Assembly (NCBI RefSeq): GCF_036017915.1
Contig: NZ_CP107929.1
Location: 3,972,001 to 4,036,000 of the forward strand
Length of the DNA stretch: 64,000 bases
DNA from: Micromonospora sp. NBC_00421
Lineage (GTDB): Bacteria > Actinomycetota > Actinomycetes > Mycobacteriales > Micromonosporaceae
Direction: 5' to 3'
Shown here: positions 11,147 through 45,474 of the stretch, one piece after another
Position numbering within the stretch: the first letter of the stretch is position 1
Layout: each line of letters starts with the position of its first letter
Notes under the pieces: model-generated
Told to the model about the DNA's origin: nothing
The model's input: only the letters and a program-made list of their open reading frames with translations
The model's database searches: none
Made by a program: the position numbers and the translations under genes

Positions 11147-11380
11147 ATGACCCCGACCCTCACGCCGCCGCCCGCAACGGTGGCGCCCCCAGCCGCCGAT
11201 GAACGGTGCGACCGCTGCAATGCTGCCGGCAAGCTCCGCATCACTCTGGCGGGTGGGAGCGAGTTGGTGTTCTGTGGGCACCACGCGAACAAGTACGCCG
11301 AGGATCTCGTGAAGATCACGGTGAAGTTCGCGACGGACCCGGAGTTCAGCTGGCGTGGCGCCGATCTGATGGCGAACTGA
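11147..11380 (+). CDS. DUF7455-like small Cys/His protein
   Basis: A 77-residue protein with the pattern CDRCNAAGKLRITLAGGSELVFCGHHANKY: a C-x2-C pair followed by C-G-H-H, which could bind one zinc ion. It resembles the small actinobacterial family often annotated DUF7455. The function is unknown. ATG at 11147 was chosen over the in-frame ATG at 11090 because it follows a very strong ribosome site (GAGGAGGAAGG, 11134-11144); translation from 11090 (AAGGG upstream) would add 19 residues. The gene is monocistronic, with its own strong terminator. Confidence 0.8.
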   Translation: MTPTLTPPPATVAPPAADERCDRCNAAGKLRITLAGGSELVFCGHHANKYAEDLVKITVKFATDPEFSWRGADLMAN

Positions 11381-11401
11381 ATCCCCAACCCGTACGACAT
11401 A

Positions 11402-11440
11402 AGCAGGCCGGAGGCACCCGATGGGTGCCTCCGGCCTGCT
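11402..11440 (+). terminator. Intrinsic terminator of the DUF7455-like gene
   Basis: A perfect 18-bp stem (11402-11419 with 11423-11440) closed by a GAT loop is followed by TTT. This is the cleanest intrinsic terminator in the window and lies 21 nt after the stop codon. Confidence 0.95.
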
Positions 11441-11480
11441 TTTCCCACCCACCTGCCCCCCACCCCCACCCACCGCCAGA

Positions 11481-11546
11481 CCCGGTGATCAAGAGGTTTA
11501 GGGCATCGGATCGCCGTTTGCTGACCAAAACCTCTTGATCACCGGG
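11481..11546. repeat. Family A palindrome, copy 1
   Basis: 19-nt perfect inverted repeat arms (11481-11499 and 11528-11546) share the core GATCAAGAGGTTT with three other copies in the window; the loop is 28 nt. It lies between convergent genes, with a C-rich tract to its left and a G-rich tract to its right. Confidence 0.9.
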
Positions 11547-11600
11547 GACGCCGGGGACGCCGGGGACGGCGGGGACGCCGGGGCGGGAGGCTGGAGCGGA

Positions 11601-11644
11601 GGGGTGGGGTGGGGTGGGGTGGGGTGGGGTGGGGTGGGGTGGGG
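11601..11644. repeat. (GGGGT)8 GGGG tract
   Basis: Eight perfect GGGGT units plus a final GGGG abut the stop codon of the helicase gene (stop at 11645-11647 on the minus strand). The plus strand has nine G4 runs and should form G-quadruplexes; the helicase mRNA end reads as ACCCC repeats. Copy number is probably variable between strains. Confidence 0.95.
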
Positions 11645-13549
11645 CTAGAGGGTTTGGAGGGTGGCTATGCGTTCTTCTAGCTGTTCGATGGTGGCCTGGG
11701 CGCTGGGGGGGCCGCCGCAGAGTCGGCGTAGTTCCGCGTGGATCTTGCCGTGGGGCAGTCCGGTGCGGTGGTGCCGGGCGGCCACCAGGGCGTTCAGTTG
11801 ACGCCGTAGCGCGACCCGGCGCTGGGCGGCACTCAGGGGCACCACGGGCGCGGCGGGGGCCGTAGCGGCCGGCTCAGCGGCCCGGACGGCTGCCCGCCGG
11901 CGCTGCGCGGCGAGCTGGTCGGCTTGGCGCTTGGTCAGCAACTGCGACACCTGGGCGGCGGTGAGCAGACCGGGCAGCCCGAGGTACTCCTCCTCCTCCG
12001 GGGTGCCGGCCTGGGCGGCGGTGCCGAAGGACGCCCCGTCGAAGATCACCTGGTCCAGTTCGGCGGTCGCGGAGAGCGCGGTGAACCGCTTCTCCAGCTC
12101 GCCGCTGGCCTGGTCGTCGCGCTGGGCCCGCTCCAGCAGCTCGTCGTCGAAGCCCTCCCGGTCCTTGGGCTTGCCGAGCACGTGGTCCCGCTCGGCCTCC
12201 ATCTCGCTGGCCAGGCCGAGCAGGTGTGGCACGCTCGGTACGAAGACCGAGGCGGTCTCGCCGGACCGTCGGGCCCGGACGAACCGGCCGATGGCCTGGG
12301 CGAAGTAGAGCGGGGTGCTGGCGCTGGTGGCGTACACCCCGACCGCCAGCCGGGGGATGTCGACGCCCTCGGAGACCATCCGGACCGCCACCAGCCACCG
12401 CTGCACGGACGCCGCGAACGTCGCGATCCGGGCGGACGCCCCCTGGTCGTCGGAGAGGACCACGGTGGCCTTCTCGCCTGTCACCTGCTCGATCAGCTTG
12501 GCGTAGGAGCGGGCGTTCTGCTGGTCGCTGGCGATGATCAGGCCACCGGCGTCGGCCATTCCGGCGTTGCGCAGCACGGTCAGCCGGGCGTCGGCCGCCC
12601 GGAGCACCTGCGGCATCCAGTCCCCGGCCGGGTCGAGGGCGGTCCGCCAGGCCTGGGCGACGAGATCCTGGGTCATCGGCTCGCCGAGCCGCGCCGCCAG
12701 TTCGTCCCCGGCGTTGGTCCGCCACCGGGTCTCCCCCGAGTACGCCAGGAACAGCACCGGACGGACGACCCCGTCGCGCAGCGCGTCGGAGTAGCCGTAC
12801 ACCGAGTCGGCGCGGGACCGCAGCAGCCCGTCGCCGCCCCGCTCGTAGGTGACGAACGGAATCGGGTTGTCGTCGGAGCGGAACGGCGTGCCGGTGAGCA
12901 TCAGCCGGCGTACCGCGGGTTCGAAGGCGTTCTTGACCCCGTCGCCCCACGAACGGGAGTCGCCGGCGTGATGGATCTCGTCGAGGATGACCAGGGTGCG
13001 TCGGGTCATCGTGCGTCGCCGGTGGACCTGCGGGGCCATCCCGACCTGGGCGTAGGTGACGACCGCGCCGTGGAAGTCGGCGGCGGAGTGCAGGTCGGCG
13101 TTGCGGAACGCGGAGTCGAGCTGGATGCCGACCCGGGCCGCGGCCTCGGCCCACTGGGTCTTCAGGTGCTCGGTGGGGGCGACCACGGTGACCGCCTCGA
13201 CGGTGCCGTCGACGAGCAGCTCGGCGGCGATGCGCAGGGCGAAGGTGGTCTTGCCGGCGCCGGGGGTCGCCACCGCCGTGAAATCGTCGGTACGACGGCG
13301 CAGGTATTCCACCATCGCCTTGCGCTGCCAGGCACGCAGGGGTGGGAACGTCTCCAATGCCGGCAACCGGGGTGCCACCCGAGGCTCCTCTCCGACCGCA
13401 CCGAGGCGGATCCGGGCCGAGGGCCACGGTTCCGCCGCCCATGAAAACGCCTCCGCGCAGAGAATGCCGCGAAGGCCGGCCCAGCATAACCAGCCGGGGC
13501 CGGCAACCCCAGTCGACACCACGCCCGTCGCCCCGACCAGCGCCGTCAC
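11645..13549 (-). CDS. SF2 DEAD/DEAH-box helicase
   Basis: A 634-residue superfamily 2 helicase of the ResIII/UvrB-like class. Motif I is ATPGAGKTT, motif II is LDEIHHAGD (DEIH), motif III is MLTGTPFR, and motif VI is FAQAIGRFVRARR. A Q-motif-like PLRAWQRKAMVEYL precedes motif I. The C-terminal ~150 residues are Ala/Gln/Arg-rich, probably helical. It is an ATP-driven nucleic-acid translocase; the substrate and pathway are unknown. The N-terminus is uncertain: GTG at 13549 gives about 45 residues before the conserved AEPWPSARIRLGAVGE region, and a start nearer to that region (ATT or CTG) is possible. The 3' end abuts the GGGGT tract. Confidence 0.85.
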   Translation of the reverse strand: MTALVGATGVVSTGVAGPGWLCWAGLRGILCAEAFSWAAEPWPSARIRLGAVGEEPRVAPRLPALETFPPLRAWQRKAMVEYLRRRTDDFTAVATPGAGKTTFALRIAAELLVDGTVEAVTVVAPTEHLKTQWAEAAARVGIQLDSAFRNADLHSAADFHGAVVTYAQVGMAPQVHRRRTMTRRTLVILDEIHHAGDSRSWGDGVKNAFEPAVRRLMLTGTPFRSDDNPIPFVTYERGGDGLLRSRADSVYGYSDALRDGVVRPVLFLAYSGETRWRTNAGDELAARLGEPMTQDLVAQAWRTALDPAGDWMPQVLRAADARLTVLRNAGMADAGGLIIASDQQNARSYAKLIEQVTGEKATVVLSDDQGASARIATFAASVQRWLVAVRMVSEGVDIPRLAVGVYATSASTPLYFAQAIGRFVRARRSGETASVFVPSVPHLLGLASEMEAERDHVLGKPKDREGFDDELLERAQRDDQASGELEKRFTALSATAELDQVIFDGASFGTAAQAGTPEEEEYLGLPGLLTAAQVSQLLTKRQADQLAAQRRRAAVRAAEPAATAPAAPVVPLSAAQRRVALRRQLNALVAARHHRTGLPHGKIHAELRRLCGGPPSAQATIEQLEERIATLQTL

Positions 13550-13584
13550 GAGAAGTGGATCACAGGCGGCGGCGGAAAGGCGGA

Positions 13585-14235
13585 TCAGAAGCGGGGGCGG
13601 CCGGGACCGGTGTCCGGGGGGTGCATCGTCGCCACCGGGGCCGACCAGCGCCGCCGTAGCGCCACCAGGCGCAGGGCGAAGACCAGCAGCGCCGCGGCGG
13701 TCAGCCCGCCCGCCCCGGCGTACCCCAGCCCCGCCAGCAGCACCACCATGATCGATCCGGCGAGCGCGGCGACGGCGTAGATCTCCCGGCGCAGCACCAC
13801 CGGTATCTCGGCGGTGAGCAGGTCGCGGCCGAGGCCGCCGCCGATCGCGGTGAGCATGCCGATCACCACGGCACCGACCGCCGGCACCCGGGCGTCGAGC
13901 GCCTTGAGCGTGCCGGTGACGGTGAACAGGCCCAGGCCGGCGGCGTCCAGCACCAGCACGGTGGTGCGCAGCCGGGCGAGCTGTGGGTGCAGCCAGAACA
14001 CGGCGGTCGCGGTGACCGCGGCGGTGGCGGCATACCGCCAGTCGGCGAAGGCGAGCGGTGGGACCTCGTCGATGACCAGGTCGCGGACGATCCCGCCGCC
14101 GAGCGCGGCGACGAACCCGACGAAGACGACGCCGAACAGGTCGAGCCGCTTGGCCACCGCCGCGGAGGCCCCGGAGGCGGCGAAGACGGCCACCCCGGTC
14201 AGGTCGGCCAGGAGCAGGGCGGTGGAGGTGGTCAC
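13585..14235 (-). CDS. Trimeric intracellular cation channel (TRIC, UPF0126) family protein
   Basis: A 216-residue membrane protein with seven predicted helices arranged as two related halves. Each half carries the TRIC signature glycine-rich bend followed by Arg-Asp: [11 protein letters not shown] in the first half and [11 protein letters not shown] in the second. Bacterial TRIC proteins form homotrimeric monovalent cation channels; the physiological role in actinobacteria is not clear. It is close downstream of the DUF3039 gene on the same strand and could share a transcript. The C-terminus is basic. Confidence 0.9.
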
Positions 14236-14278
14236 ACCGCCGAAGGGTACGCCGGGCGGTCCGCCGGACCGCCCGGGA

Positions 14279-14497
14279 TCACTCGCGGTACGAGTCGTAG
14301 ATCTCCTTGCACTTGGGGCAGACCGGCGAGCCGGGCTTGGCGGCCTTGGTCACCGGGAACGTCTCGCCGCAGAGCGCCACCACGTAGGTGCCCATCACGG
14401 CACTCTCGGCGATCTTCTCCTTGCGCACGTAGTGGAACATCTCGGGACCGGTGTCGGCGTCCTTCAACTCCGGACGCTCAAGAACCTCTGTACTCAC
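14279..14497 (-). CDS. DUF3039 family protein
   Basis: A 72-residue protein with [28 protein letters not shown] and a C-terminal [14 protein letters not shown]. The Cys residues (one in ALCGE, two in CPKC) suggest a partial zinc site. This is the DUF3039 family, which is actinobacterial and of unknown function; Rv2708c is the likely mycobacterial counterpart close to sigA/sigB. GTG at 14497 was chosen because TTGGAGGTG lies at proper spacing; the in-frame GTG six nt upstream is too close to that site. Confidence 0.85.
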
Positions 14498-14586
14498 AGT
14501 CACACCTCCAACTGCCCAAGTTTGGCAGGTCGACCGGGTCCGGTCCACCGCAGCCCACCCCGATGGTGGCCGTTACGGTAGCCGAC

Positions 14587-15513
14587 GTGACCACCTTCCA
14601 CATCCGCCCTGGCACCGAGGTCGCCGCCGCCCTGCGTGACGGCCGTCCCGTCGTCGCCCTGGAGAGCACCATCGTCTCGCACGGTCTGCCCCGACCGGAC
14701 AACCTGCGGGTCGCCCGGGAGATCGAGCAGACGGTACGCGACGCCGGCGCCGTCCCCGCCACCATCGGCATGGTCGGCGGCGAACTCGTCGTCGGCCTCG
14801 ACGATGCCCAACTGACCCGCCTCGCCACCGTCGACGGGGTGGCGAAACTCTCCGTCCGCGACCTCGCGGTGGCCGCTGCCACCGGCGCGGACGGGGCCAC
14901 CACCGTCGCCGCCACCAGCGCGGTGGCCGCCGCCCTGGGGATCGGCGTCTTCGCCACCGGAGGGCTGGGCGGGGTGCACCGGGAGGCGGCGCAGACCTTC
15001 GACGAGTCGGCCGACCTGGTCACCCTGGCCCGTACCCCGATCGCGGTGGTCTGTGCCGGGGTCAAGTCGATCCTCGACGTCGGGGCAACCCTGGAGCGGC
15101 TGGAGACCCTCGGTGTCGGGGTGCTCGGCTACCGCACCCGGCGCTTCCCCGGGTTCTACCTGACCGACGCCGGCTTCGACCTGGACTGGTCGGTGGAGTC
15201 CCCCGAGCAGGTCGCCGAGGTGCTGGCCGCCCGGGAGCAGCACGGCGTGCACCGCGGCGGGCTGATCGTGGCCAACCCGCTTCCGGTCGACGAGCAGCTC
15301 GACCCGGCGCTGCACGACCGGACCCTCACCGAGGGGCTGGCCCGGTTGGGCCGCGACGGGGTCACCGGCAAGGCGGTCACCCCGTTCCTGCTGGCTTACT
15401 TCCACTCGGCCACCGAGGGTGCCAGCCTGGCGGTCAACGTGCGGATCATCCTGCGCAACGCCGACCTGGCCGCCCGGATCGCGGTCGCGTCGGCCCGGCA
15501 CGGCACGGCATGA
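14587..15513 (+). CDS. psuG: Pseudouridine-5'-phosphate glycosidase
   Basis: A 308-residue enzyme that splits pseudouridine 5'-phosphate into uracil and ribose 5-phosphate. Family landmarks are [16 protein letters not shown] near residue 23, the active-site Lys segment [11 protein letters not shown], the Gly-rich [11 protein letters not shown] and the conserved [13 protein letters not shown] at 14587 is favoured because a -10-like TACGGT ends 7 nt upstream, consistent with leaderless transcription; the in-frame ATG at 14563 would add eight residues. Its stop overlaps the start of the PfkB kinase gene by 4 nt, forming a two-step pseudouridine salvage operon. Confidence 0.92.
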
Positions 15514-16424
15514 CCGGTCCGGGCCGGATCGTGGTGGTCGGCGACCTGATCACCGACGTGGTGGCGGTGCTGGCCGGGCCGTTGGCCACCGGTTCGGACA
15601 CCCCGGCGACGATCAGGGTCACCGGTGGTGGTCAGGCGGCCAACACCGCCGCCTGGATCGCCGCCCAGCACGCACCTGTGACGTTGGTCGGTGCGGTCGG
15701 CGACGACAGCGCCGGCCGGGACCGGGTGGCCGAGTTGGAGCGGGCCGGGGTGGACTGCGCGATCGAGGTGCACGCAAGGGCCACCACCGGGACGGTGATC
15801 GTGCTGGCCACCGCCGCCGAACGGACCATGGTCACCGAGCGGGGGGCCAACCTGCGGCTGACCGTCGGACACGTCGACCGGGCTGTGGCGACGCTGCCCG
15901 ACGCGACCCACCTGCACCTGTCGGCGTACTGCCTGCTGGATGCCGGGTCGCGACCGGCCGGGCTGCGGGCGTTGGCCGCGGCCCGCGAGCGGGGGCTGAC
16001 CACCAGCGTCGACGCGGCCTCCGCCGCACCGCTGCGGCGGATCGGCGCGGCGGCCTTCCTGTCCTGGGTACGCGACGTCGACCTGCTGCTCGTCAACGCG
16101 GACGAGGCGAGCGTGCTGGCCGGCGGGCTGGACCCGGCGGCACAGGCGCGGGCGTTGTCGGCGGCGGCCCGGCGGGTGGTGGTGAAGCGCGGTGGTGCGG
16201 GCGCGATCTGGGTGGACCGGCGGGCGACGATCGGGGTGGTCCCCTCGCTGCGGGTCGCGGTGGTGGACGTCACCGGCGCCGGGGACGCCTTCGCGGCGGG
16301 CCTGCTCACCGCCTGGACGGCCGGCGCGAAACCGCGTGCCGCGCTGACCCGCGCCGCCGACCTCGGCGCGCTGGCGGTCTCCACGGTGGGTGCCCGCCCC
16401 GCCCCGGAGGCGGCAGCAGGGTAG
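15510..16424 (+). CDS. psuK: PfkB-family sugar kinase, probable pseudouridine kinase
   Basis: A 304-residue ribokinase-fold enzyme. The N-terminal substrate loop [12 protein letters not shown] (GG-x-AxN type) and the C-terminal signature [14 protein letters not shown], with the catalytic Asp, are intact. Coupling to psuG through an ATGA overlap makes phosphorylation of pseudouridine at the 5' position the best inference, supplying the PsuG substrate. Sequence alone cannot exclude another nucleoside or sugar. The two genes together return RNA-derived pseudouridine to uracil and ribose phosphate. Confidence 0.85.
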
Positions 16425-16455
16425 CGGTGGTGGACGCCTGCGCCGGGAGCCGTGG

Positions 16456-16815
16456 TCAGGGCTCGACGTCGATGACCCGGTGCGGGCGTTCCTCGGCGGT
16501 GAGGCTCATCGGCGGGGTCTCGTCGCGGTGGCGGGGCTGGAACCGGTTGGCGAGCCGGTGCTCCTCCTTGGGCGGACGGTCGTTGGCGAGCAGCACCGCC
16601 AGCCAGGGAATGAGGATCATGCCCAGCGCCACCAGGGGCAGCCAGAGCCAGAGCAGCGGGGCCTTCGTGCCGACCAGGACCGCTCCGGCGATCACGCAGG
16701 CCACCCGGATGCCCATCATCAGCACGTACCGCTTCTGTCGGCTGGTGAGCTGGTCGTCCTGGCTACGCGAGGCGTCGGTGATCAGAATCGGCTGGTACGC
16801 CTGACGCTTCACCAT
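16456..16815 (-). CDS. DUF3099 family membrane protein
   Basis: A 119-residue protein with two transmembrane helices (about residues 29-48 and 54-76). The family signature region PILITDASRSQDDQLTSRQKRYV precedes the first helix, and a polar C-terminal tail of about 40 residues is rich in Arg and Glu. The function of DUF3099 is not known. ATG at 16815 follows AGGAGGT at good spacing. It diverges from the toxin-antitoxin pair. Confidence 0.88.
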   Translation of the reverse strand: MVKRQAYQPILITDASRSQDDQLTSRQKRYVLMMGIRVACVIAGAVLVGTKAPLLWLWLPLVALGMILIPWLAVLLANDRPPKEEHRLANRFQPRHRDETPPMSLTAEERPHRVIDVEP

Positions 16816-16858
16816 GGACCTCCTGAGGGGATTGCCCCCATCCTGTCACCGCACCACC

Positions 16859-16886
16859 TTGATCAGCGAAAATCGGCGCATACCAT
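16859..16886 (+). promoter_or_regulatory. Possible promoter of the toxin-antitoxin operon
   Basis: TTGATC (16859-16864) and TACCAT (16881-16886) are separated by 16 nt. It competes with a leaderless alternative using TACGCT at 16907-16912, which ends 6 nt before the GTG start. Confidence 0.35.
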
Positions 16887-16889
16887 CTC

Positions 16890-16911
16890 GCGTGTTACGT
16901 GCGTGGTACGC
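16890..16911 (+). promoter_or_regulatory. Candidate operator of the toxin-antitoxin operon
   Basis: A 22-nt imperfect inverted repeat of form GCGT-n3-ACG-TG-CGT-n3-ACGC overlaps the -10-like TACGCT just before the toxin start. Ribbon-helix-helix antitoxins commonly autoregulate at such sites. Confidence 0.4.
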
Positions 16912-16918
16912 TGCGCGG

Positions 16919-17206
16919 GTGGGCAGCCGGTTCAGCTTCACCGACGAGGCGTTGACCAACCTGCGGGTCTACGACGTCACCCCCGGGGAAGTCTGGGAGG
17001 CGCTGCACAGCACCCGCCGGGTGATCCGGCACCTCGGCGAGGACCTGACGGTCGTCTACGCCGCGAACCGTCGCGGCCGACGGCTGGCCGTCCTGCTCGC
17101 CGAGGCCGACGGCACCGACCACGACTGGGACGTCCTCTCCGCCCGCGAACTGAGCGATGTCGAGGCCAAGCGCTACGACGAGACCGTGCGGAGAACGCGC
17201 CGATGA
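16919..17206 (+). CDS. BrnT-like type II toxin (putative)
   Basis: A 95-residue basic protein. The beta-rich core (RFSFTDEALTNLRVYDVTPGEVWEAL, then TVVYAANRRGRRLAVLLAE) and the C-terminal segment DVLSARELSDVEAKRYDE recall BrnT/RelE-fold toxins, whose C-terminus typically reads like ISAR-x4-E-x2-Y. BrnT toxins are ribonucleases neutralised by a ribbon-helix-helix partner, which is exactly what follows. GTG at 16919 was chosen because a -10-like TACGCT ends 6 nt upstream, suggesting a leaderless transcript, and no ribosome site supports a longer form. Assignment to BrnT is by pattern only. Confidence 0.65.
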   Translation: MGSRFSFTDEALTNLRVYDVTPGEVWEALHSTRRVIRHLGEDLTVVYAANRRGRRLAVLLAEADGTDHDWDVLSARELSDVEAKRYDETVRRTRR

Positions 17207-17219
17207 GGAGGCGACGGCG

Positions 17220-17531
17220 ATGAACCGTAACGAGGCCATCAAGCGATTCCACGACGGCGACGACACGTTCGCCGAGCTGATCGACGACAGTCAGCCGGTG
17301 GAGCTGCCCGCCCCCGACACCGACGTGCCGATGGTCAGCCGCTCGGTACGCCTGCCGATGGACACCTACGAGCGGGTCCGGTCGGTGGCGGAGGCCCGCG
17401 GCATCGGGGTCACCACGCTGATGCGGCAGTGGATCGAGGCGGGCCTGGCCGACCTGGACGACTCGGCCACCGTCTCGCTCGCCGACGTGCGCCGGGCGCT
17501 CGCCGCGCTCTCCCGCCCCACCGCCGCCTGA
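17220..17531 (+). CDS. Ribbon-helix-helix (CopG/BrnA-like) antitoxin (putative)
   Basis: A 103-residue acidic protein. Residues 38-75 read as ribbon-helix-helix: the strand RSVRLPMD, helix A (TYERVRSVAEARG) and helix B (TTLMRQWIEAGL). An acidic N-terminus (HDGDDTFAELIDDS) could mask a basic toxin, and a C-terminal helix follows the DNA-binding fold. ATG at 17220 has a ribosome site (GAGGAGG) upstream. It starts 13 nt after the toxin stop, so the order is toxin then antitoxin, as in BrnTA. It probably represses the operon through the 22-nt palindrome at the promoter. Confidence 0.65.
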   Translation: MNRNEAIKRFHDGDDTFAELIDDSQPVELPAPDTDVPMVSRSVRLPMDTYERVRSVAEARGIGVTTLMRQWIEAGLADLDDSATVSLADVRRALAALSRPTAA

Positions 17532-17700
17532 GGCACCCGTACCCGACCGCGCGTCGCCTGGGTGACCGCACCTGACGTGCGTCGTCCGCCATCGCCCGCC
17601 GTCGCCGCTGTCGCGGATCTCGACGAGCCGCAGCGACCCCGGTTGCGTCAGCCGCCGCCGGCCTTCGCCGCCGCGCCGGCCCCGCGCCGTTCTTCGCCGC

Positions 17701-17760
17701 CGCTCTGACCCCTCACCCGGCCTTCGCCGCCGCTCTGACCCCTCACCCGGCCTTCGCCGC
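17701..17760. repeat. 30-bp tandem duplication at the glycosylase 3' end
   Basis: Two identical 30-bp units (17701-17730 and 17731-17760) with a partial third on the left (about 17692-17700). The right unit contains the last codons and stop of the HhH-GPD gene; the left unit is non-coding. Confidence 0.9.
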
Positions 17761-18312
17761 CGCCTTGGCCTGCTGTTTGTACTCGCGTACCCGGCGCAGC
17801 GACTCCGCGTCGGTGACGTCGGCGACCGACCGGTACGCGTCCGGGTCGCCGTAGCCGCCGGCGGCCTCCCGCCAGCCGTCCGGCCGGACCCCGTACCGCT
17901 TGCCGAGCAGGGCGACGAGGATCTGCGCCTTCTGGGTGCCGAAGCCGGGCAGGTCGACGATCCGGCGCAGCAGTTCCCGCCCGTCGGTGACGTCGGCCCA
18001 GAGCCGGCCGGCGTCGCCGTCGTACCTGTCGACCAGGATCCGGCACAGCTCCTGCACCCGGCCGGCCATCGCCTTGGGGAAGCGGTGCAGTGCGGGTGGA
18101 CCGGTGAAGACCGCCACCAGCGCCTGCGGGTCGTAGTCGGCCAACTCCCGGGCGTCCGGGTCGTGACCCAGCCGCTGGGCGAGCACGTACGGCGACGAGA
18201 AAGCCTTCTCCATCGGCACCTGCTGGTCGAGAAGCATCCCCGTCAGCAGGGCCAGCGGGCTGCGTTCCAGCAGCCGGTTGGCCTCGCCGTCGATGGGCAA
18301 CGAGAACGTCAT
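17743..18312 (-). CDS. HhH-GPD-type base-excision DNA repair protein
   Basis: A 189-residue member of the endonuclease III/AlkA-like helix-hairpin-helix superfamily. The hairpin is at RIVDLPGFGTQKAQILVALLGKRYG (about residues 116-140). The conserved acidic residue region follows (GWREAAGGYGDPDAYRSVADV), although it is not the classic LPGVG...D layout. The N-terminal part LLTGMLLDQQVPMEKAF matches a small actinobacterial subfamily annotated as base-excision repair. No iron-sulphur cluster cysteines are present. A DNA glycosylase role is inferred; the lesion is unknown. The C-terminal Lys/Ala repeat coincides with the duplicated 30-bp unit. Confidence 0.8.
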   Translation of the reverse strand: MTFSLPIDGEANRLLERSPLALLTGMLLDQQVPMEKAFSSPYVLAQRLGHDPDARELADYDPQALVAVFTGPPALHRFPKAMAGRVQELCRILVDRYDGDAGRLWADVTDGRELLRRIVDLPGFGTQKAQILVALLGKRYGVRPDGWREAAGGYGDPDAYRSVADVTDAESLRRVREYKQQAKAAAKAG

Positions 18313-18340
18313 CCCCCCATCCTGCCCCCTCGACGCGGCG

Positions 18341-21708: not shown

Positions 21709-21781
21709 CCCACCCACCCCGCCCCACCCACCCCGCCCCTGCCCCTGCCCCTGCCCCTGCCCCGCCCCAGCCCCGTCCTGC
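21709..21781. repeat. C-rich tract left of family A copy 2
   Basis: After the dtd stop, the plus strand is nearly all C with few G, including four consecutive CCCCTG units. The dtd mRNA end is therefore C-rich and G-poor, like a Rho loading site. Confidence 0.85.
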
Positions 21782-21849
21782 CCCCGGTGATCAAGAGGTT
21801 TACGTCAACTTTGATCTTCGTTTTGACGTAAACCTCTTGATCACCGGGG
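21782..21849. repeat. Family A palindrome, copy 2 (perfect 27-bp arms)
   Basis: Arms 21782-21808 and 21823-21849 are perfectly complementary over 27 nt with a 14-nt loop. The core GATCAAGAGGTTT is shared with copies at 11.5 and 44.4-44.5 kb. It lies midway between convergent dtd and spo0M and can act as a terminator on both strands. Confidence 0.95.
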
Positions 21850-21954
21850 CGGGGCGGGGGCGCGGGGGTGGGCGGGGCAGGGGCGCGGGGAGGCGGGGAG
21901 GGGGGAGGCGGGGAGGGGGGCGGGGAGGGCGAGACGGGGTGGGTGGGCGGGAGG
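21850..21954. repeat. G-rich tract right of family A copy 2
   Basis: About 105 nt dominated by runs of three to six G on the plus strand extend up to the stop codon of spo0M. On the spo0M transcript this is C-rich and G-poor. Confidence 0.85.
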
Positions 21955-38346: not shown

Positions 38347-39129
38347 GTGACCGAGGACCGGGCAAGCCGGCAGAAGAACCCGCAGCCGATCGCCGAGGCG
38401 GGTCCGCCGGCCACTCGGCGTCCCCGCGCCGCCCGCAGTCGGACCGGTCAGCCGGCCGTCCGCCCGGTCACCCCGGTGGTCAGCGGTTTCCCCGACCCGG
38501 CCACCGTCGACCTCACCGCCCGGCAGCGCCGCATCCTGGAGTTCATCCGCAGTTGGGTGGAGCGGCACGGCTACCCGCCGAGCGTCCGCGAGATCGGCGA
38601 GGCGGTCGGCCTGGTCTCCCCGTCCAGCGTCGCCTACCAGCTCAAGGAGTTGGAGAAGAAAGGCTTCCTGAGGCGCGACCCCAACCGTCCCCGGGCGGTC
38701 GACGTCCGCGCTCCGAGCGACGCCGACGACGAGCTGAGTCGCGCCCAGCGCCCCACCCCGGCGTACGTGCCGATGCTGGGTCGGATCGCCGCCGGCGGGC
38801 CGATCCTGGCCGAGCAGGCGGTGGAGGACGTCTTCCCGCTCCCCCGCGAGCTCGTGGGCGAGGGTGAGGTCTTCATGCTCCAGGTCAAGGGCGACTCGAT
38901 GCTCGACGCGGCGATCTGTGACGGCGACTGGGTGGTGGTCCGGCAGCAGCCGATCGCCGAGGCCGGCGACATCGTCGCCGCCATGCTCGACGGTGAGGCG
39001 ACCGTCAAGACCTACCGTCGACGCGACGGTCACGTCTGGTTGATGCCGCAGAACCCGGCCTTCGATCCGATCCCCGGTGACGACGCCACCATCATGGGTC
39101 GGGTCGTCGCCGTGCTCCGCCGGATCTGA
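38347..39129 (+). CDS. lexA: SOS repressor LexA
   Basis: A 260-residue repressor-protease. After a 50-residue Pro/Arg-rich extension, the winged HTH spans about residues 55-120 ([22 protein letters not shown]). The self-cleavage site is Ala149-Gly150 (RIAAGGPIL), and the catalytic dyad is Ser184 (KGDSML) with Lys221 (ATVKTYRR). RecA filaments trigger autocleavage after DNA damage. GTG at 38347 follows GGGAGGAC at ideal distance; starting earlier in frame would read through the SOS-box region. recX lies at the right end of the window and recA probably just beyond. Confidence 0.97.
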
Positions 39130-39140
39130 CGCCCCTCGAA

Positions 39141-39165
39141 CGGCCGCCTCCGTCGGAGGCGGCCG
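39141..39165. terminator. Bidirectional terminator between lexA and the Rv2721c-like gene
   Basis: An 11-bp perfect stem (39141-39151 with 39155-39165) and GTC loop is placed between the two convergent stop codons. Confidence 0.75.
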
Positions 39166-39201
39166 GCGCGCCACCCAGGACGGCGCTCGCCGCGCCGCAG
39201 G

Positions 39202-41223
39202 TCAGTAGCGCTCGCCGTTGCGGCCGGGCGGCTGACCGTACTGGCCACCCCGCCGGTCTTCCTGACCACCGTCGCGGCGCGGACCCGAACGCGGCTCACG
39301 GGGACCCGCCCCACCACGACGCGGCGGTTCGGCCCGCCCAGCACCGTATTCGCCGTCTCCACCGCGCCCACCGCCCGGAGCGCCACCACGGCCACCGGCC
39401 GCGCCCGCACCACCCGGCGGCGTGCCACCACGACCACCCGGCGGCGTGCCACCATGCCCACCGGCCGGAGCACCACCATGCCCACCCGGCGGCGTGCCAC
39501 GCCCGCCCATCGGGGCACCGCCACGGCCACCCGCCGGAGGAGCACCACGGCCACCCGCCGGAGGAGCACCACGGCCACCCGCCGGAGCACCGCCACGCGG
39601 GTCCGCAGCGGCCGGCGTGCCGGCCCGGGAGGCACCACGTGGGGCACCGCCACCCGGGCCACCACGTGAGGCACCGCCGCGCGGACCGACACCGTTGACC
39701 GGCGGGCCGCCAGCCGGGGCGGCACCGTAGACCCCACCGCCGGCGGGACGACCGCCGCCGTAGACACCGCCGCCCGCCGGACGTCCGCCGCCCGGTGGGA
39801 TGCCACCTCCCGGACCACCGGAAGGAACTGCTCCGGGGCCGGCCGGGGGCCGGCCACCGCCGTAGACCGCGCCGCCGGCCGGACGGGCGGGCGCACCGCC
39901 GACCGGCGGCGGGGCGCCGTAGACACCGCCACGTGGCCGGTCCACTGATGGTTCAGCACCCCGGGGAGACTCACCGGCCGGCAGGCCGTCGGCCCGGGAG
40001 ACGGCGCCGGAGGTGAAGACCTCGTCGTCGGGGTCGTCCGGCTCCTCGCCAGCCGCCGCGGCCCGCCGCCGGGATCGCACGATGCCGACGATGCCCGCCC
40101 CGACCAACACGGCGCCGATCGCACCGACCGCACCGATCAGGTAGGTGATCTGGTCCAGGCTGAGGGCGTCGTACCAGGACTGCTCGGCGACCGGCTTGGC
40201 TCCCGCCGCGCCCTCGACCGGCTCCGCGCCCTTGGTGGACGGCGAATAGCCGAGGATGTCGATCGGGTCGTCCGGGGAGAGTTCACCACCGTCGGAGACG
40301 GTGACGAAGCCGGTGCCGTCCGGGGTGTACGCGATGGCCTCGCCGAACGGGTCGGCCAGCGGGGTGACCCGGGGCTTGCCGGTGGTCAGGGCGGCCACGA
40401 TGTCGTCGCCACTGACGTCGTACTCGAAGGCGTCGGCGTAGGTGCGCAGGACCACCTTGCTGCCGTCGGGCGAGCGGGCCGCTCCGGTGATGGCCACCCG
40501 ACCGATGATGTTGAGCGGGTTGTCGGTGGTGGTCTTCGGCAACGTGATCTCGCCGACCTTCTTCATCGGTACCGGTTCGGCGTTGCCGCCCTTGTCGAGC
40601 TTCGCCTCCGGGGTGTAGATCTCCGCCTTGCCGCTGGGCACCTTGGTGATCACCAGGGGCATCTCGTCCGCGCCGACCAGCAGCGCCTCGGCGTCGTGCG
40701 GTTTGCGCTCCGGGTACGACAGCCGGTGCAGCACCGGCTGCTTGGCCCCGGTGACCGGCATCGTCCAGACCGCGACCCGGGTACGCCGTTCCTTGCTGGT
40801 GACGTTGTCACCGGTGTCGGCGATCCAGAGGGTCTTTCCGTCCGGCGAGAGAGCCAGGTCCTCGGTGTCGAAAGGGCCGTCGCCGGAGTACTTCACCGGC
40901 TCCTTGGCGATCTTGCACTTGGTGTCGAGGAAGAAGACCCGCTTGCGGCTCTCGTCAAGGGTGCCATCGTTGATCACGATGTAGCCGGTCTTCGTGGCGA
41001 CCAGGCCGGAAAGCTCCCGCAGCCGCTCGTCGGTGATCGTGCACTTCTTCTTGCCGGCGGGCGCGGCGGCAAGAAGCGCCCCACCGACCGGGGCGGCGGC
41101 AACCGGCGCCCCGCCGACCAGGGCGGCGGAGGTCGGTGCCGCCGCGGCGGCGGCAGCAGCAGGTGCCACGGCCGCGCCGAACAGGGCGAGGGCAACCGTG
41201 ACCGAGGAGACAGCGCGGCGCAT
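39202..41223 (-). CDS. Rv2721c-like membrane protein: extracytoplasmic beta-propeller plus Gly/Pro/Arg-rich cytoplasmic tail
   Basis: A 673-residue protein. A signal peptide with Ala-rich core (1 to about 30), a low-complexity stretch, then an extracytoplasmic domain (about 60-340) with propeller-like repeats such as DTEDLALSPDGKTLWIADTGDN. One transmembrane helix (ITYLIGAVGAIGAVLVGAGIVGIV) follows, then RSRRR, which fixes the tail inside. The cytosolic tail (about 395-673) is disordered, with many GGRGAPPA, GGHGGAPA and GGVYG units. In M. tuberculosis a protein of the same size and Ala/Gly-rich character, Rv2721c, lies beside lexA. The function is unknown; ligand sensing across the membrane is only a suggestion. 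Confidence 0.8.
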   Translation of the reverse strand: MRRAVSSVTVALALFGAAVAPAAAAAAAAPTSAALVGGAPVAAAPVGGALLAAAPAGKKKCTITDERLRELSGLVATKTGYIVINDGTLDESRKRVFFLDTKCKIAKEPVKYSGDGPFDTEDLALSPDGKTLWIADTGDNVTSKERRTRVAVWTMPVTGAKQPVLHRLSYPERKPHDAEALLVGADEMPLVITKVPSGKAEIYTPEAKLDKGGNAEPVPMKKVGEITLPKTTTDNPLNIIGRVAITGAARSPDGSKVVLRTYADAFEYDVSGDDIVAALTTGKPRVTPLADPFGEAIAYTPDGTGFVTVSDGGELSPDDPIDILGYSPSTKGAEPVEGAAGAKPVAEQSWYDALSLDQITYLIGAVGAIGAVLVGAGIVGIVRSRRRAAAAGEEPDDPDDEVFTSGAVSRADGLPAGESPRGAEPSVDRPRGGVYGAPPPVGGAPARPAGGAVYGGGRPPAGPGAVPSGGPGGGIPPGGGRPAGGGVYGGGRPAGGGVYGAAPAGGPPVNGVGPRGGASRGGPGGGAPRGASRAGTPAAADPRGGAPAGGRGAPPAGGRGAPPAGGRGGAPMGGRGTPPGGHGGAPAGGHGGTPPGGRGGTPPGGAGAAGGRGGAPGGGRGGDGEYGAGRAEPPRRGGAGPREPRSGPRRDGGQEDRRGGQYGQPPGRNGERY

Positions 41224-41271
41224 GGCGTCAGTGTCGCATGCCGCGATGAACCTCCGGTCACACCGGAGCGC

Positions 41272-42723
41272 TCACCGGCTGCCGGCCACCGCCGGATCAC
41301 CCGCCGCCACGAACGGCGCCAGTTCGGCGGCGAGCGCCTCCCCCACCCGGACGTGCAGCAGCGTGCCCTCCGGCAGGTGGGAGGTGCTGAGCACCTCGCC
41401 CTGCCGGTGCAGTCGGGCCACCAGGTCCCCCCGGTCGTACGGCAGCACCGCGCGGACCTCCACTGCCGGGCGGGGCAGCCGCTGCTCGATCACCTCGCGC
41501 AGCCCGTCGATGCCGCGCCCGCTGTGCGCGGAGACGAAGACCGCATCCGGCCAGAGCCGCTTGAGTCGCAGCAGGGTCTCCTCGTCGGCGGCATCGATCT
41601 TGTTGACCACCAGCAGCTCGGGCAGCCGGTCGGCACCGACCTCGGAGAGCACCTCACGAACCGCGCGGACCTGCTCCTCGGGATCGGGGTGGGCGCCGTC
41701 GACCACGTGCACCACCAGGTCGGCCTCGGCGACCTCCTCCAGCGTCGAGCGGAACGCCTCGACGATCTGGTGCGGCAGGTGCCGGACGAAGCCCACCGTG
41801 TCGGACAGCGTGTAGAGCCGTCCGTCCGAGGTGGTAGCCCGGCGGGTGGTCGGGTCCAGGGTGGCAAAAAGCGCGTTCTCCACCAGCACACCCGCCCCGG
41901 TGAGCCGGTTGAGCAGGCTCGACTTGCCGGCGTTGGTGTAGCCGGCGATGGCCACCGCCGGAACAGCGTTGCGGCTACGCCGGGCGCGCTTGGTCTGGCG
42001 TACCGTCTTCATGGCCTTGATCTCCCGACGCAGTCGGGCGATGCGGTGCCGGATGCGCCGCCGGTCGGTCTCCAGCTTGGTCTCACCGGGGCCCCGCAGG
42101 CCCACGCCGCCGCCGGCGCCGCCGCCGCGCCCAGAGCCGCCGGACTGCCGGGAGAGCGTCTCGCCCCAGCCGCGCAGCCGGGGCAGCAGGTATTCGAGCT
42201 GGGCCAGCTCGACCTGGGCCTTGCCCTCCTTGCTCTTGGCGTGCTGGGCGAAGATGTCGAGGATCAGCGCGGTACGGTCGACCACCTTGACCTTGGTGCG
42301 CTGCTCCAGGTTGCGCAGCTGGGACGGGGACAGCTCACCGTCGCAGATCACCGTGTCGGCACCGGTGGCGAGCACCGCCGCGGTCAGGTCGTCGACCTTG
42401 CCCCGGCCGACGTAGGTGGCCGGGTCGGGGCGGCTGCGGCGCTGGATCAGCCCTTCGAGCACCTGCGAGCCGGCCGTCTCGGCCAGCGCCGCCAGCTCGG
42501 TCAGCGAGTTGTCGGCATCACGCTGGCTGCCCTCGGTCCAGACGCCGACGAGGACGACCCGCTCCAACCGGAGCTGGCGGTACTCGACCTCGGTGACGTC
42601 GGTGAGCTCGGTGGAGAGGCCGGGGACCCGCCGCAACGCCTGCCGCTCCGACAGCTCGTACTCACCGGTCGTGGCGTCGAGGTCGTCGTCCGAGAAGGGG
42701 GTGTGGGTCTCCTGGTCTCGCAA
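41272..42723 (-). CDS. hflX: GTPase HflX
   Basis: A 483-residue ribosome-associated GTPase that splits stalled 70S ribosomes under stress. The N-terminal nucleotide-binding domain (AGSQVLEGLIQRRSRPDPATYVGRGK) and the coiled region GRGGGAGGGVGLRGPGETKLETDRR precede the G domain with G1 GYTNAGKSS, G3 DTVGF and G4 NKID. A C-terminal domain is present. TTG at 42723 is favoured because AGGAG lies 7 nt upstream; the in-frame ATG at 42750 would add nine residues that overlap this ribosome site. It diverges from the malic enzyme gene; in many actinobacteria hflX is next to dapF, from which it is separated here. Confidence 0.93.
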   Translation of the reverse strand: MRDQETHTPFSDDDLDATTGEYELSERQALRRVPGLSTELTDVTEVEYRQLRLERVVLVGVWTEGSQRDADNSLTELAALAETAGSQVLEGLIQRRSRPDPATYVGRGKVDDLTAAVLATGADTVICDGELSPSQLRNLEQRTKVKVVDRTALILDIFAQHAKSKEGKAQVELAQLEYLLPRLRGWGETLSRQSGGSGRGGGAGGGVGLRGPGETKLETDRRRIRHRIARLRREIKAMKTVRQTKRARRSRNAVPAVAIAGYTNAGKSSLLNRLTGAGVLVENALFATLDPTTRRATTSDGRLYTLSDTVGFVRHLPHQIVEAFRSTLEEVAEADLVVHVVDGAHPDPEEQVRAVREVLSEVGADRLPELLVVNKIDAADEETLLRLKRLWPDAVFVSAHSGRGIDGLREVIEQRLPRPAVEVRAVLPYDRGDLVARLHRQGEVLSTSHLPEGTLLHVRVGEALAAELAPFVAAGDPAVAGSR

Positions 42724-42898
42724 GTTGGGTCTCCTGTCCGTTCTGTGCATGTACCGAACAATCCTGACACGGGTCAACGCGGAACGCGACCGCTATATGC
42801 CCGTGGCACAGGTCGCCGAACGCGGGGGCGGCTGCCGTCGGGCCCCGGCGGGCGAGTAGAAATGGCGACGAGCCGCCAGCGACGACGGAGGTATTTCC

Positions 42899-44371
42899 GT
42901 GGCCATCACCAGACTGCCGAGTGCCGGATTCTCGATCACGATCCGGATCGCGGTCCCCGCGGACGCCTCCTCGATCGGCCGGCTGACCACGTCGGTCGGC
43001 GAGGCCGGTGCGATCGTCACCGCGCTGGACGTGGTCGACTCCGACCCGACCCACGTGATCGTCGACCTCACCTGCGACACCGCCGACGCCGGCCACGCCG
43101 ACCAGGTCGTCGAGGCGCTCACCGCGCTCGACGGGGTGGACGTGCGCAAGGTCTCCGACCGGACGTTCCTGCTGCACCTCGGCGGCAAGATCGAGGTGCA
43201 CTCGAAGGTGGGGCTGCGGACCCGTGACGAGCTGTCCCGGGCGTACACCCCCGGGGTGGCCCGGGTCTGCATGGCGATCGCGGAGAATCCGGCGGACGCC
43301 CGGCGGCTGACCATCAAGCGCAACACGGTCGCCGTGGTCAGCGACGGCTCGGCGGTGCTCGGCCTGGGCAACCTCGGCCCGGCGGCGTCGCTGCCGGTGA
43401 TGGAGGGCAAGGCGGCGCTGTTCAAGCGCTTCGGCGGGGTGGACGCCTGGCCGGTGGTGCTGGACACCCAGGACACCGACGAGATCGTGGCGATCGTCAA
43501 GGCGATCGCCCCGGCGTACGGCGGGATCAACCTGGAGGACATCGCCGCGCCGCGCTGCTTCGAGATCGAGGCCCGGCTGCGGGAGCTCCTGGACATCCCG
43601 GTCTTCCACGACGACCAGCACGGCACCGCGATCTGCGTGCTGGCCGCGCTGACCAACGCGCTGCGCGTGGTGGGCAAGCAGCTCGCGGACGTGCGGGTGG
43701 TCGTCTCCGGGGCCGGCGCGGCCGGGACCGCGATCATGAAACTGCTGCTGCGCCAGGGCGTCGGCGACATCATCGCGTACGACCGGCAGGGCGCCCTGCA
43801 CCGTGGGCTACCCGACCTGAACCCGGCCTGGCAGTGGCTGGCTGAGAACACCAACCGGGACAACTACTCCGGCGACCTGGCGGGGGCGGTCCGGGACGCG
43901 GACGTCTTCATCGGGGTGAGCGCCCCCAACCTGCTCACCGGCGACGACGTCGCCACCATGGCCAAGGACGCGATCGTCTTCGCGCTGGCGAACCCCGACC
44001 CGGAGGTCGACCCCCGGGAGGCCCGCAAGCACGCGGCGATCGTCGCCACCGGCCGCTCGGACCAGCCGAACCAGATCAACAACGTGCTCGCCTTCCCCGG
44101 CGTGTTCCGGGGCATGCTCGACGCGCACGCCGAGGAGTTCACCGAGGAGATGGCGATCGCGGCGGCCCGTGCCATCGCCGACGTGGTCGGCGAAGACAAG
44201 ATCAACCCAACGGTCATCGTGCCAAGCGTCTTCGACTCCCGGGTCGCCCCGGCGGTCGCCGCCGCCGTCCGCGCCGCCGCCCAGAACCCCGCCGTCACGC
44301 CACCCCCGGCCGCCGACCCGGGGCCGGCCGACCTCCCCGAGATCGCCGCCACCGCCAGCGCCACCCCCTAA
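42899..44371 (+). CDS. NAD(P)-dependent malic enzyme with N-terminal ACT domain
   Basis: A 490-residue enzyme converting malate to pyruvate and CO2 with reduction of NAD(P). An ACT-like regulatory domain (about residues 10-90, FSITIRIAVPADASSIGRL) precedes the malic N-terminal domain (catalytic region LSRAYTPGVARV and LFKRFGGVDAWPV) and the metal-binding EDIAAPRCFEIE and FHDDQHGTAI. The NAD-binding loop is VVSGAGAAGTAI. The ACT domain hints at allosteric amino-acid control. GTG at 42899 has GGAGGT in front. The last ~35 residues are Pro/Ala-rich. It converges with dapF across a repeat-rich junction. Confidence 0.95.
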   Translation: MAITRLPSAGFSITIRIAVPADASSIGRLTTSVGEAGAIVTALDVVDSDPTHVIVDLTCDTADAGHADQVVEALTALDGVDVRKVSDRTFLLHLGGKIEVHSKVGLRTRDELSRAYTPGVARVCMAIAENPADARRLTIKRNTVAVVSDGSAVLGLGNLGPAASLPVMEGKAALFKRFGGVDAWPVVLDTQDTDEIVAIVKAIAPAYGGINLEDIAAPRCFEIEARLRELLDIPVFHDDQHGTAICVLAALTNALRVVGKQLADVRVVVSGAGAAGTAIMKLLLRQGVGDIIAYDRQGALHRGLPDLNPAWQWLAENTNRDNYSGDLAGAVRDADVFIGVSAPNLLTGDDVATMAKDAIVFALANPDPEVDPREARKHAAIVATGRSDQPNQINNVLAFPGVFRGMLDAHAEEFTEEMAIAAARAIADVVGEDKINPTVIVPSVFDSRVAPAVAAAVRAAAQNPAVTPPPAADPGPADLPEIAATASATP

Positions 44372-44410
44372 CCCCTAACCCCCTCCCCCCTCCCCGCCCC
44401 CGCCTCCAGC

Positions 44411-44464
44411 GATCAAGAGGTTTACGTCAACCCACCCGCCATCCCCACCCCAAACCTCTTGATC
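44411..44464. repeat. Family A palindrome, copy 3
   Basis: 13-nt perfect arms GATCAAGAGGTTT (44411-44423) and its complement (44452-44464). The left arm extends TACGTCAA like copy 2, but the right arm is changed there, so the palindrome is partly decayed. Confidence 0.9.
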
Positions 44465-44490
44465 ACCACACAGCACCCCCGTCGGGGCCG

Positions 44491-44550
44491 GGTGATCAAG
44501 AGGTTTGGGTCATCCCGAGCGGCTTTTCTGACCCGAGTCTCTTGATCACC
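44491..44550. repeat. Family A palindrome, copy 4
   Basis: 22-nt imperfect arms (44491-44512 and 44529-44550) match at all but about three positions. It lies 26 nt after copy 3 in the same orientation, making a tandem pair between convergent genes. Confidence 0.9.
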
Positions 44551-44640
44551 GGGGGCGGGACGGGGGGTGGGGGCGGGGCAGGGTGGGGGCGGGGGGGGGG
44601 GGTGGGGGGTGGGGGGTGGGGGGAAGCGGGGGCGGGGTGG
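44551..44640. repeat. G-rich tract abutting dapF
   Basis: Ninety nt of nearly continuous G runs on the plus strand, one at least 11 G long, end at the dapF stop codon (44641-44643). The minus-strand transcript is C-rich. This is a likely hotspot for slippage and sequencing error. Confidence 0.9.
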
Positions 44641-45474
44641 TCAGGGGAGGGAGAGGGTGCCGGTGGCGAGCAGGACGGCGGGGCCGGAGAGCCAGCAGGA
44701 GTCGGGCGTGACGGTGACCGTGAGGCGGCCACCGGGGACGTCGACGGTGACCGTGCCGGTGTCCCGGGCGGCGTCGCGCAGGGCCACGGCGGCGACCGCG
44801 CAGGCTCCGGTGCCGCAGGAGAGGGTCTCGGCCGAGCCGCGCTCGTAGACCCGCATCAGCACGTGGCCGTCGGCGCCGTCCACCGGGTCGCCCGGGGCGG
44901 TGAACTCGACGTTCACCCCGTGCGGGAAGACCCGGGGGTCGAACTCGGGCGCGCGGGTGAGGTCCAGGTCGGCCAGGTCGATACCGGTCGGCAGGGCGCA
45001 GACCAGGTGCGGGTTGCCGACGTCCACCGCCGCGCCGGGCAGGGTGAGCCCGCCCAGGACGGCGCGCGACGCGTCGTACACCCGGGGGCGGCGCATCTCG
45101 ACGGCGATGGTGTCGCCGTCGACCCGGGCCCGCACCAGGCCGGCGCGGGTGGCCACCGGCAGGATCCCGTCAGCCGGCGTGGCCAGCCCGGTGGCCAGCA
45201 GGTAGCGGACGAAGACCCGGGCCCCGTTGCCGCACATCTCGGCGGACGAGCCGTCGGAGTTCCAGTAGTCCATGAACCACTCGGCCGTGTCGGCGAGGGC
45301 GACCCCGTCCGGGTGCTTGGCCGCGCGTACCACCCGGAGCACGCCGTCGCCGCCGAGGCCGCGCCGCCTGTCACAGATCCCGGCGACCAGGCCGGGGGTC
45401 AGGTCGAGGGCGCCGTCCGGGTCGGGCAGGATGACGAAGTCGTTGCCGGTGCCATGGCCCTTGGTGAACTCCAC
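44641..45474 (-). CDS. dapF: Diaminopimelate epimerase
   Basis: A 277-residue, PLP-independent epimerase that converts LL- to meso-diaminopimelate for peptidoglycan and lysine synthesis. It has two pseudo-symmetric halves, each with one catalytic Cys: EMCGNGARVF in the first and LSCGTGACAVA in the second. The N-terminus FTKGHGTGNDFV is canonical. GTG at 45474 is chosen from this conserved start. It begins 7 nt after the miaA stop, so miaA and dapF are co-transcribed, as in mycobacteria (Rv2727c-Rv2726c). Confidence 0.97.
   Translation of the reverse strand: MEFTKGHGTGNDFVILPDPDGALDLTPGLVAGICDRRRGLGGDGVLRVVRAAKHPDGVALADTAEWFMDYWNSDGSSAEMCGNGARVFVRYLLATGLATPADGILPVATRAGLVRARVDGDTIAVEMRRPRVYDASRAVLGGLTLPGAAVDVGNPHLVCALPTGIDLADLDLTRAPEFDPRVFPHGVNVEFTAPGDPVDGADGHVLMRVYERGSAETLSCGTGACAVAAVALRDAARDTGTVTVDVPGGRLTVTVTPDSCWLSGPAVLLATGTLSLP

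Follow-up and report, generated by a model that had tools for sequence, protein, structure and literature searches.

Introduction

To our knowledge, how transcripts end in high-GC actinobacteria is poorly understood. Here, we describe a family of palindromes, usually flanked by a C-rich and a G-rich tract, in the genome of Micromonospora sp. NBC_00421. The family was noticed at three convergent gene junctions of the window, by which we mean the whole stretch of 64,000 nucleotides that was analyzed (positions 3,972,001-4,036,000 of a chromosome consisting of one contig of 7,231,838 bases). The element favours gene 3′ ends without being specific to convergent pairs. With a probability of roughly 0.4, we propose that its two half-sites are DNA sites of a putative protein and that the whole element may act as a two-sided boundary stopping transcription from either side.

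Several described systems resemble this element. Rho-dependent terminators with Rho utilization (rut) sites have C-rich, G-poor RNA downstream of the stop codon. The junctions described here share this RNA 3′ of the stop, but a mirror image of the tract stands on the far side, also in gaps without convergence, and the tract accompanies a palindrome of specific sequence. Intrinsic bidirectional terminators are inverted repeats between stop codons, symmetric for both strands. Position and both-strand symmetry are the same for the Micromonospora palindrome, whereas the latter has no T run, a loop of 16-17 nt, and arms that are fixed in sequence besides pairing. In chloroplast stem-loops, small loop inversions occur between inverted repeats. 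The segment between the arms likewise flips among close relatives, as at junctions 1 and 2 when compared with genome G003, but here the chromosome is bacterial and its dozens of copies share an arm sequence. The DNA uptake sequences of Neisseria and Pasteurellaceae are paired at terminators, form species dialects, and reach thousands of copies. Species-level dialects and inverted pairs at gene ends are also found here, but the palindromes number tens rather than thousands. While many single copies, including copies inside genes, are expected of uptake sequences, we counted 91 palindromes in the genome and only 8 half-sites outside palindromes in 1.25 Mb.

The closest likeness is to repetitive extragenic palindromic (REP) sequences and bacterial interspersed mosaic elements (BIMEs). 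As described in an excerpt of PMC3733652, those of the GTAG and CGTC superfamilies are short palindromic repeats between tandem or convergent genes, with fewer copies in divergent gaps; they sometimes lie close together, and the families differ between species. The location between tandem and convergent genes, 3′ of coding regions, is shared by the Micromonospora palindrome, although less clearly in genomes G123 and G045. A REP of these superfamilies measures 20-40 bp and carries an unpaired GTAG or CGTC tag at one end, whereas the palindrome described here measures 54-60 bp, is two-fold symmetric, and has no tag, CGTC being present only inside the arm. The GTAG type goes with a REP-associated tyrosine transposase (RAYT, PF01797), while most of the tested carriers of the Micromonospora palindrome family have no PF01797 gene. 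Set against the REPs of that excerpt, the flanks with a C-to-G strand switch and the occurrence in Micromonospora and its relatives are features of the family described here.

Results

Palindrome family and its half-sites

We surveyed 61 stretches (1.25 Mb) of the NBC_00421 genome. A match to the arm was the selection criterion, except for 7 stretches and the window. Genes were called with a simple codon-usage caller trained on this genome, and lengths of 50-60 bp were tolerated in palindrome calling. The 80 copies found give the consensus GATCAAGAGGTTT-RSGTCA-N16-TGACSY-AAACCTCTTGATC, with a length of 54 bp in 75/80 and 55 bp in 5/80. The palindrome is usually bordered by G[GT]T on its left side and A[AC]C on its right, and these three outside base pairs are complementary in 75, 63, and 73 of the 80 copies. 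The exact arm 13-mers occur 76 times per strand in the whole genome (reversed control, 0), and 51 exact-arm palindromes are present in the chromosome. When up to 3 mismatches across the 34 fixed bases are allowed, the 54-bp form is found 91 times in the genome (control, 0). By eye, the distribution over the chromosome is irregular.

Five of the eight half-sites outside called palindromes lie beside a palindrome, in direct repeat to one of its half-sites, four of them at a distance of exactly 22 bp and one at 30 bp. The remaining three are parts of palindromes with a decayed arm. A spacing of 22 bp corresponds to G[GT]T plus the 19-bp arm. Two half-sites in direct repeat are unable to pair, and their spacing equals this unit, so the half-site looks like the recognized unit. 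Neighbouring palindromes are also regularly spaced. The steps in the NBC_00421 genome are 83-84 bp (seven cases), 94 bp (two), and 103-104 bp (two), so that 11/14 cases fall on a ladder with a spacing of about one helical turn; the exceptions are 130, 134, and 142 bp (one each).

For comparison, we used palindromes in named genomes, whose loci were located by exact arms (the named-species set). The arm scan led to at least 120 stretches, all from Micromonospora apart from one record filed as Verrucosispora, and some of these genomes are 93-97% identical in the genes adjoining palindromes of NBC_00421. All six neighbour steps of this set are on the ladder (83, 93, 103 in three cases, and 104). 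In G003, three palindromes at junction 3 follow each other at exact 83-bp steps, and two of them are near-copies.

Placement at gene 3′ ends

Of the 80 palindromes, 35 sit in convergent, 40 in tandem, and 3 in divergent gaps, with 2 at stretch ends. Among gaps of at least 100 nt, a palindrome is present in 30/107 convergent, 30/270 tandem, and 3/161 divergent ones. Divergent gaps are thus avoided (3/161 vs 60/377 for convergent and tandem gaps together, p = 2.8e-7), and the even spread over three gap types, which would have refuted the first-pass interpretation, is not seen in this genome. The first-pass annotation had noted that all copies lie in convergent gaps and took the element to be dedicated to tail-to-tail genes. 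The former is correct for the window, but half of the copies in the genome (40/80) are in tandem gaps. When counted per 3′ end, convergent (30/214) and tandem gaps (30/270) do not differ (p = 0.34). A convergent-only model is ruled out by these two results. In tandem gaps, the palindrome is closer to the upstream stop codon in 29/40 cases of NBC_00421 and in 45/50 of the named species.

A similar placement is found in 800 contiguous kb of G003, where 5/112 convergent, 4/385 tandem, and 0/114 divergent gaps hold a palindrome. The 14 palindromes concerned comprise 7 convergent, 5 tandem, and no divergent copies and 2 matches inside called genes, one of which looks like chance by eye.

We also scanned gaps of at least 80 nt for U-tract terminators and found them on 16/541 gene 3′ sides. 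Their rarity leaves room for another termination mechanism. They occur on 2/90 sides with a palindrome and 14/451 without; both are too rare together to test whether one replaces the other.

C-to-G skew of the tracts

A scan that was blind to palindromes detected 49 strong C-to-G switches between called genes of the 61 stretches. Within 200 nt of a called palindrome lie 45/49 of these switches, and one more is at a decayed copy in stretch L177. The same scan gave a single switch of opposite sign. In all three gap types, the sequence left of the palindrome is rich in C and that on its right is rich in G, the divergent figure coming from only 3 copies each in NBC_00421 and the named species. Both flanks have the expected sign of skew in 64/79 copies of NBC_00421 and in 120/127 of the named species.

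The earlier annotation assigned the C tract to the mRNA ending at that place. C-rich, G-poor RNA indeed precedes the presumed end point, as a Rho-type terminator would have it, yet the far side is equally skewed. In tandem gaps oriented by transcription (n = 40), the C-G skew of the near side is 0.330 and the G-C skew of the far side is 0.312 (p = 0.74). The values are 0.298 and 0.335 in the named species (n = 50, p = 0.08). As the far side equals the transcript side, the tracts belong to the element rather than to the genes. The convergent-side C-G skew is 0.484 in NBC_00421 and 0.278 in the named species with a palindrome, and nearly absent without (0.069 and 0.043), which rules out that convergent gaps are skewed in general. 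The tracts go with the palindrome whatever the gene orientation. Motifs for G-quadruplexes were found on 116/149 flank sides, compared with 87.0 after base shuffling.

DNA site or RNA hairpin

If the palindrome acted as an RNA hairpin, variants in one arm should be matched in the other. At arm position 14, which is the most variable one, 34 of 78 variants are paired, and 34.0 are expected; the left and right sides are therefore independent. Six tested arm positions other than 14 and 15 had too few variants in NBC_00421 to weigh much. Mismatches of the G-U and A-C types are equal over all 80 copies (40 and 41). When read on the strand transcribed from the upstream gene, there are 28 and 20 in NBC_00421 and 11 and 15 in the named species, which is no consistent G-U excess. 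The four palindromes of the window are followed by ACC and then G-rich or mixed sequence; the 80-copy consensus after the stem is ACCGGGG, with no T run.

The length of the element is kept more strictly than its loop sequence. Flanking genes identified 31 orthologous pairs of palindromes. The two lengths agree in 27 of them and are off by one in the other 4, while the gaps around them vary up to 4.8-fold in length. The loops of the 27 equal-length pairs are 45% identical, compared with 31% in random pairs and 88% in the flanking genes. Although the pairing tests are mixed, we favour a DNA site over an RNA hairpin as the reading of the palindrome.

The three junctions of the window

The first-pass annotation described a composite of C tract, palindrome, and G tract at three convergent junctions. 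We re-read the sequence and found all three as described. Tracts are given for the plus strand.

At junction 1, a C-rich tract (11444-11483) is followed by a 54-bp palindrome (11487-11540) and by a G-rich tract (11541-11644) with CCGGGGACG and GGGGT tandem repeats, which ends at the minus-gene stop (11645). Including three flanking bases each, the 22-bp half-sites span 11484-11505 and 11522-11543 and are 16 bp apart. C and G make up 0.60 and 0.15 of the 60 nt on the left and 0.27 and 0.58 on the right. The annotation had missed a canonical U-tract terminator of the plus gene (11401-11443, plus strand; inverted repeat I6), which has a perfect 19-bp stem, a 3-nt loop, and a T run. It lies downstream of the plus stop and ahead of the C tract, separate from the palindrome.

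Junction 2 consists of a C-rich tract with CCCTGC-type tandem repeats (21709-21785), a 54-bp palindrome (21789-21842; 22-bp half-sites 21786-21807 and 21824-21845), and a G-rich tract (21843-21954) ending at the minus-gene stop (21955). The fractions of C and G are 0.67 and 0.18 on the left and 0.18 and 0.73 on the right.

Junction 3 holds two palindromes between its C-rich (44372-44407) and G-rich (44548-44640) tracts, the latter again ending at the minus-gene stop (44641). The first palindrome (44411-44464, 54 bp) is separated from the second (44494-44547, 3 mismatches in the right arm) by a spacer of 29 bp (44465-44493), which gives the 83-bp step. C and G fractions for the first copy are 0.68 and 0.10 on the left and 0.33 and 0.33 on the right, where the 60 nt cross the spacer into the second copy. 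The second copy has 0.50 and 0.18 on the left and 0.12 and 0.78 on the right.

With at most 3 mismatches, the arm 13-mer matches the window 11 times (2.87 expected; 11 reached in 0/100 shuffles). An Rfam scan of the window gave no match above the gathering score. The tracts of the window junctions contain tandem repeats.

Two other repeat regions of the window stand apart from these junctions. A 26-bp tandem repeat (51497-51603) has four copies that are 97% alike, and most of it falls between two called genes of the plus strand. A long intergenic gap (61912-62577) is filled with different short tandem repeats, namely CGCCTG, a 25-bp unit, GGGACAGA, and units of 21 bp and 41 bp.

Conservation, dialects, and turnover

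With degenerate arms, the family was detected in 62/63 genomes of the same genus and in 8/187 others sampled in the bacterial family, which makes 7 genera in all. A class-wide sample of 296 genomes gave the three same-genus genomes in it (NBC_00421 included) and, once, the distant G504, whose arms are unequal. The earlier suggestion of a genome-wide family, with C-rich and G-rich tracts beside the palindromes and a place at gene 3′ ends, is supported.

The arm sequence occurs in dialects. It is GATCAAGAGGTTTGCGTCA here and GATCATGARGTTGRCGGC in G045 and G123, where the C and G tracts are kept; judged by eye, G068 mostly has GATCATGAAGTTAGCGAC and G010, which belongs to another genus, GATCATGAAGTTGGCGC.

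The position-keeping comparison took 109/133 named palindromes, as copies at the end of a stretch, within a called gene, or with less than 250 nt of flank were left out. A flank of any kind was present in the NBC_00421 stretches for 57 of them, and both flanks side by side for 41. NBC_00421 also has a palindrome in 36/41 comparable gaps (19 distinct gaps of this genome), against a background of 64/1,061 gaps in its stretches. The 31 orthologous pairs described above come from this comparison after gaps with more than one palindrome were also omitted; several pairs share one NBC_00421 gap, most at L170. Nine palindrome gaps were located in G003 by their flanks alone, without regard to the palindrome there, and 7/9 keep one. 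Compared with G003, the loop is inverted at junction 1 (11487-11540; 12/16 bases agree when flipped, 3 unflipped) and at junction 2 (21789-21842; 14/16 flipped, 4 unflipped).

Junction 2 was compared at 30 loci out of 81 genomes with a match. L202 and L209 have no flank on one side, which leaves 28 usable same-genus loci, with dialect labels and presence of tracts judged by eye. The site is occupied in 17, with the NBC_00421 dialect in 7 and two others in 10. On the tree of the flanking genes, the state of the junction has to change 8 times (shuffled mean 14.9). L197 and L222 are sister rows (support 99/87) that differ by the replacement of one dialect with another.

At junction 2 of L206 (G252), which has no palindrome, we observed by eye a small unrelated inverted repeat (CCGCACC...GGTGCGG) and a mild C-to-G trend in a 50-nt gap.

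Searches for mobile or known elements

No PF01797 gene (RAYT/IS200-type) was found in the NBC_00421 genome, and 2/16 other carrier genomes have one; mobilization of this type is not supported. Of the features of miniature inverted-repeat transposable elements (MITEs), empty sites are present at junction 2 (11/28), and no target duplication was seen by eye. Phage and viral-contig searches gave no match with queries that were junction 2 or the arm pattern only, simple repeats being masked by BLAST. The plasmid search gave matches at chance level only (97 records with E values of 10 or less, in none of which 80% of the query aligned at a single place). In searches with these queries, a phage, plasmid, or viral origin is thus unsupported. 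The arm contains CTCTTG, the sequence of a topoisomerase I site, but the other dialects (CTCATG, TTCATG) break this motif, and the reading was rejected.

In the open-licence literature, two arm 13-mers match only two unrelated papers, and six related 13-14-mers are without a match. Among the matches listed for topic searches, no such palindrome family is named.

Discussion

We think it likely that a putative protein recognizes the half-sites in their double-stranded form. Such a dyad site of a sequence-specific protein is suggested by the constant spacing, by half-sites that also occur as 22-bp direct repeats, by steps of helical turns, and by the independence of the two sides at position 14. 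Together with the position at 3′ ends and the C-rich RNA on both approaches, this points to a two-sided transcription boundary, for which we propose a roadblock combined with Rho. Two inverted 22-bp half-sites at a fixed distance of 16-17 bp would bind the putative protein, which would block RNA polymerase arriving from either side. Rho would load on the C-rich RNA made before the block and release the transcript. In a tandem gap, the far-side tract may act against antisense transcription.

Several observations weigh against this proposal. The binding protein was not identified in this analysis. At arm position 15, 53 variants are paired and 44.6 are expected (p = 0.012), so that the only two positions of NBC_00421 at which the independence test has power, 14 and 15, disagree. 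Paired variants are above chance at six of seven testable positions (all but 10) in the pooled named species, a set that includes orthologous copies and several species and hence is not independent. Because exact arms were used to locate the named loci, the 31-pair comparison partly presupposes the conservation of the arms. An 83-bp step can also be obtained by duplicating a unit, and the near-copies at junction 3 of G003 suggest that this may explain part of the ladder. For the upstream transcript, the far-side tract in tandem gaps serves no purpose. Genes were called with a simple codon-usage caller, and most stretches had been picked for holding a palindrome. In 20 stretches of G123 and G045, which have another dialect, divergent gaps are not avoided (9/64 convergent, 9/242 tandem, and 3/63 divergent gaps), although this sample is small. 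Their 26 matches comprise 11 convergent, 9 tandem, and 4 divergent copies and 2 inside called genes, one of which again looks like chance by eye. Furthermore, 11/28 relatives lack the site at junction 2, with 3-50 nt between the flank matches. In G031, a genome of another genus, many of 43 copies have near-identical loops and some share flanks, which resembles a spreading repeat. Several of the 15 copies with seen flanks (L256, L261, L266-L278) share CTAGATCGACGCCAGCCTGCGGT-type flanks, and three copies also have a second palindrome, CGTGGGTAT...ATACCCACG.

The main rival to the proposed boundary is a selfish or passively spread repeat of the REP or MITE kind, a reading that we consider rather unlikely. 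The repeat would be tolerated at 3′ ends as the least harmful place, and the tracts would have come along or grown by slippage, which the tandem repeats in them would fit. The short gaps of relatives without the site, the dialect replacement between sister species at the same gap, the divergent copies of G123 and G045, and a patchy occurrence in other genera, where G031 has 43 copies, many of them near-identical, and five other sampled genomes of its genus have none, all favour such a repeat. Published REPs show the same gene-orientation bias in the excerpt of PMC3733652, a point that also counts against a boundary. A freely spreading repeat is harder to reconcile with positions that are kept in 36/41 named gaps and in 7/9 gaps of G003, and with loops that are near random while their spacing is constant. 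The scarcity of PF01797 genes and the outcome of the phage, viral-contig, and plasmid searches also argue against it. The model of the first-pass annotation, in which both converging transcripts are terminated by an RNA hairpin together with rut-like C-rich RNA, making the element a two-sided terminator, appears unlikely. Part of it stood: the 3′-end position, C-rich and G-poor RNA before a strong potential hairpin, and the small number of U-tract terminators are as this model would have them, and pairing is above chance at position 15 and in the pooled named species. What it leaves unexplained is the independence at position 14, the equal numbers of G-U and A-C mismatches, and a loop of constant length but near-random sequence. 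Half of the copies lie in tandem gaps with an equal far-side tract, and half-sites in direct repeat cannot form a hairpin with each other.

We also considered a chromosome-structure site for gyrase, a nucleoid protein, or a condensin-type protein. It would settle at 3′ ends, the places where supercoils driven by transcription meet, and would play no direct part in termination. A dyad-symmetric, modular DNA site with helical-turn steps would suit such a function, as would the equal use of convergent and tandem 3′ ends. With no candidate protein and an irregular distribution over the chromosome, we regard it as very improbable. A wider form of the proposed boundary is itself doubtful. It holds that a genus-wide system exists in which the putative protein reads the 22-bp half-sites and marks 3′ ends as roadblocks with Rho-loading tracts, and that protein and sites would have changed dialect together while the places were kept. 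Such a system would be to bacteria what terminator or insulator proteins are to eukaryotes.

As dialects change while positions are kept, the partner protein should be findable by co-variation between species. If the palindromes are spreading repeats instead, they would represent an actinobacterial palindromic family that is mostly without a REP transposase. If the sites work as proposed, a sequence-specific protein, beyond RNA structure or Rho, would punctuate bacterial genes.

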